From NCBI RefSeq assembly GCF_002160895.1, contig NZ_NFLL01000004.1, positions 1-64,000 on the forward strand: a stretch of 64,000 nucleotides of DNA. Direction: 5' to 3'. Positions 41,267-46,560 of this stretch are shown one piece after another. The DNA comes from Faecalibacterium sp. An122 (GTDB lineage: Bacteria; Bacillota; Clostridia; Oscillospirales; Ruminococcaceae). Each line of letters opens with the position of its first letter. The first letter of the stretch is position 1. Both the position numbers and the translations under genes were made by a program. Below the pieces are notes generated by a model, which saw nothing but the letters and a program-made list of their open reading frames with translations, was not told the origin of the DNA and did not search any database.

Positions 41267-41665
41267 ATGCCGAAACGGTTTTTGCGCAATGCTCTGCTGA
41301 TGGCTGTCGTCACCGTTCTGATGGCGCTCAGCCTGGTGTTCTATATCCACAACACGAACCCGCTGCCCGGCGGCGAAAACCCCAACAACGTCTTGCTGCT
41401 GGATGGGGTGTACACCTCGGTGCAGCAGGGCTACCTCAGTGAGGTGACCGTCACCGTCACCATCTCCAGCGGGATGGTGTCGGATGTCCAGGTGGATGCC
41501 TCGGGCGAGACCCCCGCTCTGGGCGGCGTGGCCGCTGCCCAGCTGGCCACTGCTCTGACCGAGGCCGGCTCCTCTGCCAACGTGGACGTGGTGTCCGGCA
41601 GCACCTACACCAGCGAGGCGGTTCTCGCCGGTATGGATGACTGTCTGGCCCAGGCTGCGGGCTGA
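41267..41665 (+). CDS. FMN-binding domain protein, membrane-anchored
   Basis: A 132-residue protein: one N-terminal membrane helix (about residues 8-27), then an extracytoplasmic FMN-binding domain. The segment LSEVTVTVTISSGMVSDVQVDASGETPALGG and SGSTYTSEAV (residues 110-119) match the NqrC/RnfG-type pattern, where a Thr is the flavin attachment site. RBS AAAGGAGG lies before the ATG at 41267. It may take part in extracellular or membrane electron transfer. It lies 38 bp after glnS and 70 bp before the LRR gene, but a terminator follows it, so its link to the next three genes is uncertain. Confidence 0.75.
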   Translation: MPKRFLRNALLMAVVTVLMALSLVFYIHNTNPLPGGENPNNVLLLDGVYTSVQQGYLSEVTVTVTISSGMVSDVQVDASGETPALGGVAAAQLATALTEAGSSANVDVVSGSTYTSEAVLAGMDDCLAQAAG

Positions 41666-41676
41666 TTCACAGGAAA

Positions 41677-41720
41677 AAAGCGCTTCCCGGCGGCAACACG
41701 CCGCGGGAGCGCTTTGTTTT
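41677..41720 (+). terminator. Terminator after the FMN-binding gene
   Basis: Long stem: left arm from AAAGCGC (41677-41683) to GCGGC, right arm GCCGCGGGAGCGCTTT (41700-41715), with two bulges, followed by GTTTTG. Confidence 0.75.
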
Positions 41721-41734
41721 GAAGGGAGGCATCC

Positions 41735-42760
41735 ATGCGGTATACCTTTGATTATACGGTGCAGCCCGACGGCACAGCGGCCCTGGCCCGGGCCTATGGG
41801 GAGGAACCCATCCTCACCCTGCCCGAGGCTCTGCCCGGCCCCGAGGGGCAGCTTCTGCCCCTGGCCCGGCTGGGAGGCTACTGCTTTGCGGGAACCGTCC
41901 GGGACCGGATGCCGGGACAGCTGCTCCGCTGCGGGTGGGACGGCGAAGTCCGGCCGGTGTACGCCGGCCCTGCCGCCGAGTCGGAGGACCTGCACCCGGT
42001 GGCGGGGAACTTCCTGGAGGAAATCACCCTTCCGGCCTCCCTGCGGGAGGTGGGCAGCTGCGCCTTCTACAACTGCCGGGCCCTTCGCCGGATGACGGTG
42101 GGGGACGGGCCTCTGGCGGTGGGCAGCGATGTCTTTCTCAACTGCTTTGCCCTGACCGAGGTCCGGGTCTGCGCCCAGCCCGACGCCGTTACCGGCCTGT
42201 TTGCCATCGTCAACAATATTTCCAGCAACCTGCGGGCGGCTTTCCTGCCGGACGGGCCCGAAGGGGACACCGCGGCGGTGTTCCGCTACCCGGAGTACTG
42301 GGAGGACATCGAGGAGACCCCCGCCCACATTCTGCTCCACACCTTCTCGGGCCAGGGGTATCACTACCGCCAGTGCTTCCGGGACGGGCGTCTGCGCTGC
42401 GAGGAGTACGACGCCATCTTTGCCCAGGGCCACGGCGGGGATGATCCCACCTATATGGCCCTCCTCTGCCTGGATCGGCTGCGGTATCCCTGGCAGCTGG
42501 GAGAGGAGGCTGCCGGGCGTTACCGGGTCTTCCTGGCCCAGCAGGGGGCGGCGGTGGCTGCGGCCCTCATCCGGGCCCAGGACCGGGAGGCGCTGGGGGC
42601 ATTGCTGGCCTTGAACGTCCTGGACGGTCCGGCCCTGGCAGCTGCCTCGGCGGCAGCCCAGCAGGCCGGAGACGCCCAGTCTGCCGCCCTGCTGGCCGAT
42701 GCGGAGTACCGCGCCCGGCCCGCCCGGCCCAAACGACGTTATACATTTGATGATTTTTGA
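41735..42760 (+). CDS. Leucine-rich repeat (BspA-like) protein of the VWA/MoxR cassette
   Basis: A 341-residue protein without signal peptide. Residues about 94-145 hold BspA/LRR_5-type repeats (LEEITLPASLREVGSCAFYNCRALRRMTVGD..., then VFLNCFALTEVRV). The N-terminus (YTFDYTVQPDGTAALARAYG) is like the LRR_5 pre-repeat strands. The C-terminal half (about 215-341) is helical and Ala-rich and looks like no family known to me. GGGAGG precedes ATG. It lies 26 bp before a DUF2201/VWA gene and then a MoxR ATPase, so the three probably form one operon. BspA-like repeats often bind proteins, so an adaptor or substrate-recognition role is plausible. Confidence 0.65.
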   Translation: MRYTFDYTVQPDGTAALARAYGEEPILTLPEALPGPEGQLLPLARLGGYCFAGTVRDRMPGQLLRCGWDGEVRPVYAGPAAESEDLHPVAGNFLEEITLPASLREVGSCAFYNCRALRRMTVGDGPLAVGSDVFLNCFALTEVRVCAQPDAVTGLFAIVNNISSNLRAAFLPDGPEGDTAAVFRYPEYWEDIEETPAHILLHTFSGQGYHYRQCFRDGRLRCEEYDAIFAQGHGGDDPTYMALLCLDRLRYPWQLGEEAAGRYRVFLAQQGAAVAAALIRAQDREALGALLALNVLDGPALAAASAAAQQAGDAQSAALLADAEYRARPARPKRRYTFDDF

Positions 42761-42786
42761 GATAAATATTCCGGGAGGTGATCTGT

Positions 42787-44220
42787 ATGGTCCGCAAAGC
42801 ACCGGTGGATTTCAACGCGCCCTTTCAGTCGGCCCGGCCCGAAACCCATGAGGAATGGCAGGCCCGGATGGGCGGCGAGGTGCTGGCTGTGCTGCGCAGC
42901 GAGCTGTACCTGGACTTCCGCTTTCTGGATCAGGCCCTGGGGGCCCTGACCCCCGTTCCCGACGAGCGGTGCGGCGTCCTGGCCACCGATGGCCAGAGCC
43001 TGTTCTACCAGCCCAGCGCCCTGCTGCGGCTCTACCGGGAAAACCCAAAATACCTCAAACGGTTATATCTTCACACAATATTCCACTGCGTATTCCGGCA
43101 TCTCTGGCTGCAGGGCAGCCGGGACCCGGCTCTGTGGCATGTGGCCTGCGACCTGGCGGTGGAAAACGTCATCGACGGCCTGGGGCGCAAGAGCATCCTG
43201 CGGCCCCTGACCTACGTCCGCCGCCGGGCCTATGAGGCCCTCACCGAGGGGGGCCATGTGGCGGCGGCAGCCCCGGCCTACCGCTGGCTGCTGACCCAGA
43301 CCCCTGGCGTCCAGAAACAGCTGGCCCGGGAATTCTACGCCGACGATCACCGTCTGTGGCCCAAGCCCGGCCAGCCCAACCAGCCCGCCCCGTCCCCCCA
43401 GCTCCAAAAGACCTGGCAGAAGATCGGGCGGCGGATGGAGACCGAGCTGGAGCTGAACGACAAAGAAGCCGGCGCCAACGCCGGCAATCTGGCCGAGGCG
43501 GTGAAGGCCGCCAACCGGAGCCGCAGCAGTTACCGGGATTTTCTGCGCCGGTTCTGCGTGCTGCGGGAGGAACCCCATCTGGACCCCGACACCTTTGATC
43601 TGAACTTTTACACCTACGGGCTGTCGGTCTACGGAAACATGCCCCTCATCGAGCCGGTGGAGACCCGGGAGAGCAAAAAGATCGAGGAGATCGCCCTGGT
43701 CATCGACACCAGCTATTCCACCTCGGGCGCGCTGGTGCGGAGCTTCTTGTCCGAGACTTACGCCCTGCTGAAACAGCGGGAGAGCTTTTTCCGCCGGATG
43801 AACCTCCACATCATTCAGGCCGACAACAAAGTCCAGCGGGACCATTTGGTCACCACCGAGGACGAGCTCATCGACCTGATGGATCATTTCGAGCTGGCGG
43901 GAGGCGGCGGAACCGATTTCCGCCCCGCCTTTGCCTATGTGACTCAGCTGTGCGAGGAGAAAAAGTTCCAGAACCTGCGGGGCCTGCTGTATTTCACCGA
44001 CGGCAGGGGAACCTATCCCGCCCGCCGCCCGGCCTACGAGACGGCGTTCCTGTTTTTGGGGGATAAGTTCGACGACGCCAACGTGCCGCCCTGGGCCATC
44101 AAGGTGGTGCTGGACGAGGATGAGTTCACCCGGCCCGATTCGGTTCCCAGCCCGGCCGGCAGCCTGGCTGCGGCCCTGGATGAGGACCAGGACCTCTACC
44201 GTGACCTGAACAATTCGTGA
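42787..44220 (+). CDS. VWA-like protein with DUF2201 metallopeptidase-like N-terminus
   Basis: A 477-residue protein. The N-terminal part resembles the DUF2201 putative metallopeptidase domain, with LHTIFHCVFRHLW (H96, H100, H105) followed by WHVACDLAVENVI; the general-base Glu of HExxH is Thr97 here. The middle is charged and helical. The C-terminal VWA-like domain carries a MIDAS: DTSYS (residues 307-311), GGGGTDF and FTDGRG. ATG 42787 has GGAGG 8 bp upstream. Such proteins work with MoxR AAA+ ATPases, and one follows here. The role of the pair is unknown. Confidence 0.82.
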   Translation: MVRKAPVDFNAPFQSARPETHEEWQARMGGEVLAVLRSELYLDFRFLDQALGALTPVPDERCGVLATDGQSLFYQPSALLRLYRENPKYLKRLYLHTIFHCVFRHLWLQGSRDPALWHVACDLAVENVIDGLGRKSILRPLTYVRRRAYEALTEGGHVAAAAPAYRWLLTQTPGVQKQLAREFYADDHRLWPKPGQPNQPAPSPQLQKTWQKIGRRMETELELNDKEAGANAGNLAEAVKAANRSRSSYRDFLRRFCVLREEPHLDPDTFDLNFYTYGLSVYGNMPLIEPVETRESKKIEEIALVIDTSYSTSGALVRSFLSETYALLKQRESFFRRMNLHIIQADNKVQRDHLVTTEDELIDLMDHFELAGGGGTDFRPAFAYVTQLCEEKKFQNLRGLLYFTDGRGTYPARRPAYETAFLFLGDKFDDANVPPWAIKVVLDEDEFTRPDSVPSPAGSLAAALDEDQDLYRDLNNS

Positions 44221-44231
44221 GGAATCTGCCT

Positions 44232-45773
44232 ATGAATATCAAGCGTGCAAAAGATGAGATCAAGCGGTCGGTCCGGGCCTATCTGGCCAAGGACGCCCTG
44301 GGGGAATACGCCATTCCGGCCATCCGTCAGCGGCCCATCCTGCTGATGGGCCCTCCGGGCATCGGCAAGACCCAGATTTTGGAGCAGGCCGCCCGGGAGT
44401 GCGGGGTGGCTCTGGTGGCCTACACCATCACCCACCACACCCGCCAGAGCGCCGTGGGCCTGCCCTTCATCCGCCAGAAGCACTACGGTGACCGGGATGT
44501 CTCGGTCACCGAGTACACCATGAGCGAGATCATTTCCTCCATCTATGAGAAGATGGAGACCACCGGCCTGAAAGAGGGCATCCTGTTCATCGACGAGATC
44601 AACTGCGTCTCCGAGACCCTGGCCCCCACCATGCTGCAGTTCCTGCAGTGCAAGACCTTCGGCAACCAGGCGGTGCCGGCGGGCTGGGTGATTGTGGCGG
44701 CGGGCAACCCGCCCGAGTACAACAAGTCGGTGCGGGATTTTGACATCGTCACCCTGGACCGCGTCCGCCGGATGGACATTGAGCCCGATCTTCCCGCCTG
44801 GCGGGACTACGCCCGGGCGGTGGGCATCCATGGCGCCATCCTGAGCTATCTGGAACTGCATCCCCAGAACTTCTACCAGATCAACGCCGATGTGGAGGGC
44901 ACCCAGTTCGTCACCGCCCGCGGCTGGGAGGATCTGTCCAACCTGCTGGACACCTACGAATCCCTGGACCTCCAGGCCGACGAGGAAGTGATCCGGCAGT
45001 ATCTGCAGCACAAGCAGATCGCCGAGGACTTCGCCTCCTACCTGGACCTGTACTATAAGTACCGGGACGACTACGGCGTGGAGGAAATCCTGGCGGGCAA
45101 GCCCCGTTCGACGGCCTTTGCCCGGCTGCTGCAGGCGCCCTTTGACGAGCGGCTGTCCCTGGTCAGCCTGATGCTGGCAGGGCTGAAATCCCGCTTTGCC
45201 GCCTCCTGCCGCCGCAACCAGGTGACCGACGACTGCTACGCCCTGCTGCGTCAGCTCAAACAGGACCTGGCTCTGCTGCCCGACGCCGAGTCCTCCGACC
45301 CGGAACGGATGCTGCAGCAGCAGATTTCGGACTATGAGGCGGAAACCGCCCGCCTGCGCACCGCCAACGCCCTGGACAAGGAAGCCCTGGCCCACCGTCT
45401 GGGGGTGGCCGCCGCCCTGCGGGAGTGGGCCGGCAAACTGCGCCGGGCCAACGCCGCCGGAACCAAGGAGGCGCTGGACCTGCTGCGCAGCTACTTTGAG
45501 GAGCTGGCCGATGAGCGGGAAAAGATCCAGGAGGAGGCTTCCGCCGCCCTGGAGGCTGCCTTCGACTTCATGGAACAGGCCTTTGGCGAGAGCCAGGAGA
45601 TGGTGATTTTCGTCACCGAGCTGACGGTGTCGCCGGCAGCCCATACCTTCATCACCGAGAACGGCTGCGACCGCTATTTCCGCTACAACAAGGACCTGCT
45701 GCTGGACAGCCGGAAAGCCGCGCTGGACCACGAGCTGGCCGCCGAGGAGCTGCGCAACCCGCTCCGCGGATAA
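44232..45773 (+). CDS. MoxR-family AAA+ ATPase
   Basis: A 513-residue ATPase: Walker A GPPGIGKT (residues 40-47), Walker B ILFIDEIN near 117, sensor region AAGNPPEYNKSVRDFD and arginine DRVRRMD. The last 200 residues are helical with coiled-coil character (SDYEAETARLRTANALDKEALAHRL...), longer than most MoxR proteins. ATG 44232 follows GAGGAA; the VWA gene stops 11 bp earlier. MoxR/VWA pairs act as chaperones that assemble or activate a partner protein; the partner here could be the LRR protein. A terminator at 45790 ends the operon. Confidence 0.88.
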   Translation: MNIKRAKDEIKRSVRAYLAKDALGEYAIPAIRQRPILLMGPPGIGKTQILEQAARECGVALVAYTITHHTRQSAVGLPFIRQKHYGDRDVSVTEYTMSEIISSIYEKMETTGLKEGILFIDEINCVSETLAPTMLQFLQCKTFGNQAVPAGWVIVAAGNPPEYNKSVRDFDIVTLDRVRRMDIEPDLPAWRDYARAVGIHGAILSYLELHPQNFYQINADVEGTQFVTARGWEDLSNLLDTYESLDLQADEEVIRQYLQHKQIAEDFASYLDLYYKYRDDYGVEEILAGKPRSTAFARLLQAPFDERLSLVSLMLAGLKSRFAASCRRNQVTDDCYALLRQLKQDLALLPDAESSDPERMLQQQISDYEAETARLRTANALDKEALAHRLGVAAALREWAGKLRRANAAGTKEALDLLRSYFEELADEREKIQEEASAALEAAFDFMEQAFGESQEMVIFVTELTVSPAAHTFITENGCDRYFRYNKDLLLDSRKAALDHELAAEELRNPLRG

Positions 45774-45789: not shown

Positions 45790-45836
45790 AAAAAAGCCCG
45801 CACAGGGCCTCCCTTTGGAGGCTGTGCGGGTTTTTG
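45790..45836. terminator. Bidirectional terminator between moxR and the VTT-family gene
   Basis: Arms AAAAAGCCCGCACAG (45791-45805) and CTGTGCGGGTTTTT (45822-45835), with inner CCTCC/GGAGG pairing. T-runs at both ends, between convergent genes. Confidence 0.9.
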
Positions 45837-45851: not shown

Positions 45852-46454
45852 TCAGTCCAGATGATGCTTGCGGCAGAACACCTTGGAGGCAAAGTACATG
45901 CCCACCCACAGGGCCACCGCCAGAATCAGATAGAGGGGGTTCTCCAGGGCGTTGCTGAGGGACTCCCCAAACAGGGCCATCATGGCCACCATCACAAATT
46001 TGCCGGCCAGCAGCGTGGCGATATACCGGCGGCCGTCAAAATCCGAGATGCCGAAGGTCAGGTGGAGGAAGGAGGTGGGGGTGAAGGGCAGCATGGCCAG
46101 GGTAAACAGGGTGGAGGTGTCGCAGTTGCTGACCCAGCCCTGGGCCTTGCGGAACCACGCGTACTTGCTGGCGTGGCGCCAGAAAAAACGCTTGACCACC
46201 CGCCGCCAGAAGGCAAACATCAGGATGCCGCCCAGGGCCACGCCGCACCAGCTGAACAGAAAGCCCATGATGGGCCCGTGGGCTGCCACGTTCAGGGCCA
46301 CAATGGCGATGAGGGGCAGGGGAGGAACAAAGGATTCCACCATCGCCAGCAGGATGGGCACAAAGGGACCCAAACCCACAAAGCTGTCCAGCAGCGACTG
46401 CCAGAACTCCAGCGATGTGATCTGATTGCTCCAATAAAGAAGCGTTTCTTCCAT
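45852..46454 (-). CDS. VTT/SNARE-associated (DedA-like, TVP38) membrane protein
   Basis: A 200-residue membrane protein with a VTT domain (formerly SNARE-associated). The pattern is a first helix LLAMVESFVPPLPLIAIVALNV (near residue 35), then WCGVALGGILMFAFWRRV, MLPFTPTSFLHLTFGIS and the terminal helix LILAVALWVGMYFASKVF. This family includes lipid scramblases of the DedA type. ATG 46454 has GGAGG 8-9 bp upstream; an earlier ATG at 46469 lacks one. No operon partner. Confidence 0.85.
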   Translation of the reverse strand: MEETLLYWSNQITSLEFWQSLLDSFVGLGPFVPILLAMVESFVPPLPLIAIVALNVAAHGPIMGFLFSWCGVALGGILMFAFWRRVVKRFFWRHASKYAWFRKAQGWVSNCDTSTLFTLAMLPFTPTSFLHLTFGISDFDGRRYIATLLAGKFVMVAMMALFGESLSNALENPLYLILAVALWVGMYFASKVFCRKHHLD

Positions 46455-46560
46455 GTATTGTCCTCCCATTGTATCCGACTGTCTCTAGTATACCCAGTGA
46501 ATATGACAAACCAGTGAACGAATTGTCAAGTTCCTGCACAAAAAGACAAAATGACGATGG

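Follow-up and report, generated by a model that had tools for sequence, protein, structure and literature searches.

The 64,000-nucleotide stretch analysed here (the window; positions 1 to 64,000 of contig NZ_NFLL01000004.1 from Faecalibacterium sp. An122, a genome of 3.26 Mb in 80 contigs) carries three adjacent genes on its plus strand. They encode a leucine-rich repeat (LRR) protein (41735-42760), a protein with DUF2201_N and von Willebrand factor A (VWA) domains (42787-44220) and a MoxR-type AAA+ ATPase (44232-45773). We propose, with a probability of roughly 60 %, that the three proteins form a single ternary remodelling machine of the MoxR-VWA type and that the LRR protein docks on the metal ion-dependent adhesion site (MIDAS) of the VWA protein by an acidic peptide at its C-terminus. 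Linkage of the genes, mostly in the order given, holds in many clostridial genera and also outside the Clostridia, and genomes in which the LRR gene has moved away from the pair still retain it.

MoxR-VWA pairs are widespread, and few of them have a known client. A co-travelling third subunit offers a direct handle on the client, and such a subunit accompanies the pair in Faecalibacterium, Gemmiger, Roseburia, Blautia, Coprococcus comes and others. Its C-terminal peptide bears on how the MIDAS of a VWA protein recognises its partner. In addition, a clade with a dead HExxH site beside intact relatives would show a peptidase turning into part of a chaperone.

The three genes are kept together

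A scan of named genomes returned 587 relatives of the VWA protein, of which the closest, at 89-93 % identity, belong to uncultured Faecalibacterium. Among the best 80 of these 587, the LRR gene lies directly upstream of the VWA gene in 70 loci and elsewhere in the fetched locus in six (five upstream at 0.5-8.7 kb, one 3′ of MoxR). In the remaining four (L061, L085, L095 and L114) a full-length LRR gene scoring 217-302 bits sits on a different contig or in a separate stretch of the same genome, and an LRR homologue is present somewhere in the genome for all 80 loci. The original prediction had cast the LRR protein as a partner or adaptor in a three-part system, an idea that homologues found mostly away from the VWA/MoxR pair would contradict. 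That contrary pattern was looked for and is not what the genomes contain, and both the linkage and the co-occurrence described next support the three-part system.

In 119 genomes of the bacterial family, every full-length LRR match (E<1e-20) stands beside VWA and MoxR or shares a genome with them, and the remaining LRR matches span the repeat core alone. Across 391 genomes of the class, the genomes with a strong VWA match and those with a strong MoxR match are the same 24, to which LRR matches reaching the helical tail are also confined. The LRR search of the 391 genomes scored few candidates per genome; when flanks were then read directly, a tail-bearing LRR gene was seen to adjoin the pair in most genomes that this search had missed. 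MoxR occurs in 31 of 31 congeners. Close MoxR relatives with 33-39 % identity and no adjacent VWA or LRR gene also exist in four genomes of this bacterial family (G065, G071, G035 and a second copy in G113; loci L039, L040, L041 and L042).

Gene order varies while all three parts are kept: LRR-VWA-MoxR, VWA-LRR-MoxR, VWA-MoxR-LRR, or two LRR genes flanking the pair. One genome of the same phylum outside the class encodes an LRR protein of 1177 amino acids with the same tail and the ending DDYEL, followed by VWA and then MoxR. This long LRR protein (L252, 7026-10559, genome G729) also carries an extra N-terminal region of unassigned kind. No fusion of any two of the three genes was seen among the loci examined. 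Conserved flanking genes had been suggested as a further thing to look for, and across the loci compared there is none other than the triad itself; glnS is a direct neighbour of the unit in two genera, Faecalibacterium and G054. All three genes are under strong purifying selection, with ratios of nonsynonymous to synonymous substitution rates (omega) of about 0.21-0.27 for LRR, 0.08-0.14 for VWA and 0.13-0.15 for MoxR. The LRR protein diverges more than the other two.

The LRR protein carries a helical domain and an acidic C-terminus

The candidate adaptor or receptor is an LRR protein of 341 amino acids that matches Pfam LRR_5 (E=3.5e-7), with LRR_5 repeats present in all 69 LRR homologues scanned. 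No signal peptide or membrane segment is apparent in it, and no recognisable catalytic or effector domain was found with Pfam in the 69 homologues. The whole AlphaFold2 (AF2) model has a predicted local distance difference test (pLDDT) score of 95.1 and a predicted template modelling (pTM) score of 0.90. Its N-terminal part resembles BspA-type LRR structures (6mlx with Z 14.2 and 1.9 Å over 110 residues; 4oju, Z 13.3; 4gt6, Z 13.1).

The extended helical end that the original prediction could not account for by the core domain corresponds to a confidently modelled alpha-helical repeat domain, spanning residues 208-327 (42356-42715, plus strand; pLDDT 95-98). Triad LRR proteins have this domain, and 24 LRR_5 proteins of the same family that do not belong to a triad are without it. 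Length and repeat number vary from protein to protein, over a range of 256 to 1177 amino acids, with the helical tail retained.

Beyond residue 330 the pLDDT is lower, and the chain ends in the peptide YTFDDF (residues 336-341; 42740-42757, plus strand), the proposed MIDAS ligand. Under a pattern that also admits S, T, K, A or V as the middle residue, a C-terminal [FY][DE][LF] or YxF[DE]DF is present in 84 of 98 triad LRR proteins. The matching counts are 11 of 846 for neighbouring open reading frames (ORFs) and 1 of 24 for LRR_5 proteins outside triads; the 846 contain spurious ORFs, and the 24 are the fairer control. With the middle residue held strictly acidic, the figures are 67 of 98 for triad LRR proteins and 5 of 846 for neighbouring ORFs. 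At one locus (L145, genome G163) the VWA gene has an LRR gene on each side, and both LRR proteins end in FEL.

The VWA protein combines an intact MIDAS with a degenerate peptidase site

The VWA protein, a putative co-chaperone of 477 amino acids, lies above the Pfam cut-offs for both DUF2201 (4.6e-9) and DUF2201_N (3.7e-7), and 16 of 16 homologues match both families. A sequence search of its profile against the PDB gave no match. The MIDAS is intact in the form DxSxS...T...D, with DTSYS (D307, S309, S311), T376 and D405 (43705-44001, plus strand) occupying invariant columns of alignment A3, and DxSxS is present in every homologue whose site was displayed.

The HExxH site that would mark a DUF2201_N metallopeptidase is degenerate. 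Comparison with homologues identifies it as HTIFHCVFRH (H96, H100, H105; 43072-43101, plus strand), in which Thr stands for Glu. Among 109 VWA proteins scored, the site has become HxxxHxxxxH: none has the Glu and 101 have the third His. The canonical DUF2201 pairs seen in this bacterial family read HEVLH, HEILH, HEAMH and, in one case, HQMMH, and three of these four thus keep the Glu. Because the catalytic Glu is gone while the His residues stay, the DUF2201_N domain is predicted from its sequence to be unable to cleave peptides. The degenerate site may still hold a metal.

The ATPase resembles NorQ, CbbQ and RavA

The ATPase, of 513 amino acids, matches Pfam AAA (5e-8) and AAA_5 (5e-7) above cut-off. 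Its Walker A motif, GPPGIGKT (44349-44372, plus strand), is conserved in all homologues, and Walker A and B are present in 112 of 112. The AF2 model (pLDDT 83.6) has, by DSSP, a beta-hairpin ahead of helix 2 (residues 80-93; 44469-44510, plus strand) at the position of the helix-2 insert of the MoxR clade. A Foldseek search with this model placed NorQ chains at ranks 1-15, with CbbQ2 (E 4e-4) and RavA (E 7e-4), both below 0.001, also in the small set of significant matches; VIA-align gave Z 8-9 across many AAA+ clades and did not separate them. As modelled, the ATPase is a MoxR of the NorQ/CbbQ/RavA type.

An extended helical end had also been predicted for the MoxR protein. The model bears this out with long helices (304-347, 357-377, 383-406, 411-450 and onward) in a C-terminal extension of residues 304-508 (45141-45755, plus strand) that contains a conserved GQEMVxFVTEL. 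The MoxR of canonical DUF2201 pairs, at about 370 amino acids, is without this extension.

A proposed ternary machine

We infer the docking, stoichiometry, client and function of the machine from these observations together with what is known of related pairs. NorQD cannot do without the MIDAS of NorD, for which the acidic NorB residues D220/E222 are the proposed ligands (PMC9976466). In CbbQO, the acidic residue taken by the MIDAS belongs to rubisco (D82/E75; PMC4660213). Because the conserved free C-terminus of the LRR protein offers an acidic residue suited to a MIDAS, we read the LRR protein as a specificity subunit docked on the VWA protein, with MoxR driving remodelling. The repeats would bind a cytoplasmic target, the helical domain would form a scaffold facing the machine, and the C-terminal acidic peptide would supply the sixth ligand of the MIDAS metal; the link between the LRR and VWA proteins is probably this conserved tail. 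ATP hydrolysis by the MoxR ring would then move the VWA protein so that the LRR-bound target is remodelled or released. The dead peptidase domain would probably act as a binding or metal-holding scaffold and not as an enzyme.

Several observations weigh against this model. The C-terminal pattern is lacking in 14 of the 98 triad LRR proteins, some of which end in WDLDF, WDIDF or YSFD and a few of which end wholly differently. Three genomes (G209, G443 and G111) have VWA and MoxR and no detectable full-length LRR protein; in G443 and G111 the VWA and MoxR proteins are divergent, and G111 encodes ankyrin-like proteins nearby (Ank_2, below cut-off). No full-length LRR protein is detectable in G408 either, where the locus stops at a contig end. 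In G398, too, no LRR gene was detected, and the VWA gene is split in two frames (L138, 5027-6382), as if the whole system were decaying. Finally, the acidic residue of the LRR protein may be read instead by MoxR or by another factor.

Alternative explanations

The strongest alternative makes the LRR protein the client: VWA and MoxR would form a chaperone dedicated to folding, disassembling or switching it, and the biological job would fall to the LRR protein itself. This fits nearly as well as the adaptor reading. Dedicated MoxR pairs often adjoin their sole client, as do norQD with the nitric oxide reductase cNOR and cbbQO with rubisco (PMC9976466, PMC4660213), and the greater divergence of the LRR protein points the same way. 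However, Pfam recognises no catalytic or effector domain with which the LRR protein could act, and the wide range of lengths around a constant helical tail fits a receptor that varies while its connector stays the same. We regard the client reading as unlikely, while giving it more weight than any other alternative.

A conflict system of the MoxR-vWA ternary kind, in which the LRR protein would sense an invader, has a similar composition, since a core pair is joined there by a third protein and LRR is a common sensor fold (PMC7159879). Against defence stand the lack of a conserved effector gene nearby, the failure of PADLOC to give a convincing family, the presence of MoxR in every congener, the adjacency of glnS in two genera, the lack of a plasmid match, omega values of 0.08-0.27 and hosts that are not multicellular. 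We rejected a defence system as unsupported by flanks, PADLOC, congeners or plasmids, and consider it highly improbable. Incidental linkage of an unrelated LRR gene in a stable chromosomal neighbourhood can be dismissed as barely credible, since descent alone can preserve gene order within a genus but here the three genes remain while flanks differ, a relocated LRR gene is retained, other gene orders keep all three, and the triad recurs in another class.

A mobile element was likewise considered and rejected. The triad matched on no plasmid in a plasmid search, and viral contigs hold distant VWA relatives only: many IMG/VR contigs (L152-L226) carry DUF2201/VWA relatives at about 20-37 % identity. 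Seven unannotated 'Bacteriophage sp.' records of 4-15 kb from human faeces (MT837937 and six others) encode MoxR at 42-76 % identity, and these may be bacterial fragments filed as phage.

Boundaries of the unit and neighbouring genes

The unit is LRR-VWA-MoxR, without the FMN-binding gene upstream, because in genus G054 the LRR gene comes after a terminator and a site that resembles a good promoter (TTGCCA-17-TATAAT, in our reading of the sequence). The original prediction had grouped FMN-binding, LRR, DUF2201/VWA and MoxR genes in one cluster. All four ORFs are indeed on the plus strand where it placed them and match the expected Pfam families, and the short gaps it described hold: 26 bp between LRR and VWA and 11 bp between VWA and MoxR, each with a GGAGG or GAGG that resembles a ribosome-binding site (RBS), and no sigma-70-like site was detected between the three genes. 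The FMN-binding gene, however, falls outside. It encodes a membrane protein (41267-41665, plus strand; Pfam FMN_bind E=1.1e-12), is separated from the LRR gene by a terminator and, among 21 loci compared, is restricted to the same genus; we rejected it as a unit member and regard it as a mere neighbour.

The predicted terminator upstream of LRR is present as a terminator-like hairpin at 41677-41716 (plus strand; -36.5 kcal/mol on folding the full 81-nt stretch), and three further loci of Faecalibacterium, as well as G081, keep a hairpin at this junction. In the window (41677-41735) and at loci L046, L047, L052 and L026 the RBS of LRR lies immediately 3′ of the hairpin, which is conserved in Faecalibacterium, and a promoter cannot fit between them. 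Expression of the triad may come about by read-through or from a promoter within the FMN-binding gene. A second hairpin, 3′ of MoxR (45794-45832, plus strand; -35.3 kcal/mol), ends the unit, and beyond it lies a convergent ORF for a membrane protein (45852-46469, minus strand). Two further proteins are encoded on the 3′ side of the triad at another locus (L037, 3617-6090, genome G113): a second LRR protein, which may contain a zinc ribbon, and a protein with a protein-kinase domain.

Comparison with known systems

NorQ-NorD shares with the triad a MoxR and a VWA protein; Foldseek ranks NorQ first for the MoxR model, and the MIDAS of NorD is proposed to take an acidic residue of the partner. 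The pair differs in that its client is a membrane nitric oxide reductase, an LRR protein is absent, the N-terminal domain of NorD is not a DUF2201_N pseudo-peptidase and NorQ is without the long C-terminal helical extension. CbbQ-CbbO is also a MoxR-VWA pair whose MIDAS requires an acidic residue on the surface of its client, with the client C-terminus a proposed contributor; unlike the triad, it has two components, an enzyme client and no LRR protein. RavA-ViaA is a third such pair, in which RavA, like the triad MoxR, extends C-terminally past the AAA+ module. The RavA extension is a different domain, which binds LdcI, and both LRR and DUF2201_N are absent from the pair.

The canonical DUF2201 and short MoxR pairs belong to the same two families, lie adjacent and occur in the same bacterial family. 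They differ from the triad in the HExxH site, intact in three of the four seen, in their shorter MoxR and in having no LRR protein. The BspA-type LRR_5 surface proteins share the LRR fold (6mlx, 4gt6, 4oju), whereas the triad LRR protein has no apparent export signal and adds a helical-repeat tail and an acidic C-terminus.

Four MoxR-vWA ternary conflict types have been described, with VMAP, iSTAND, FtsH or a beta-propeller as the third partner (Kaur et al. 2020, PMC7159879). The triad resembles them in that a third protein, characteristic of the type, joins a MoxR-vWA core. However, Pfam found none of these four domains in the three window proteins, the bpMoxR profile scored 18.8 bits against a cut-off of 27, and no linked effector domains were seen, since there is neither a conserved flanking gene nor a convincing PADLOC family. 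The third protein of the triad is instead an LRR protein with helical repeats and no effector modules, genus-core in unicellular gut Clostridia. A literature search, which left out most subscription journals, found no published description of an LRR-type MoxR-VWA triad. Tentatively, and at somewhat less than even odds, the triad could represent a fifth MoxR-VWA ternary kind, part of the core gene set of many gut Clostridia, with the acidic LRR tail occupying the MIDAS and a former metallopeptidase domain serving as a non-catalytic scaffold.

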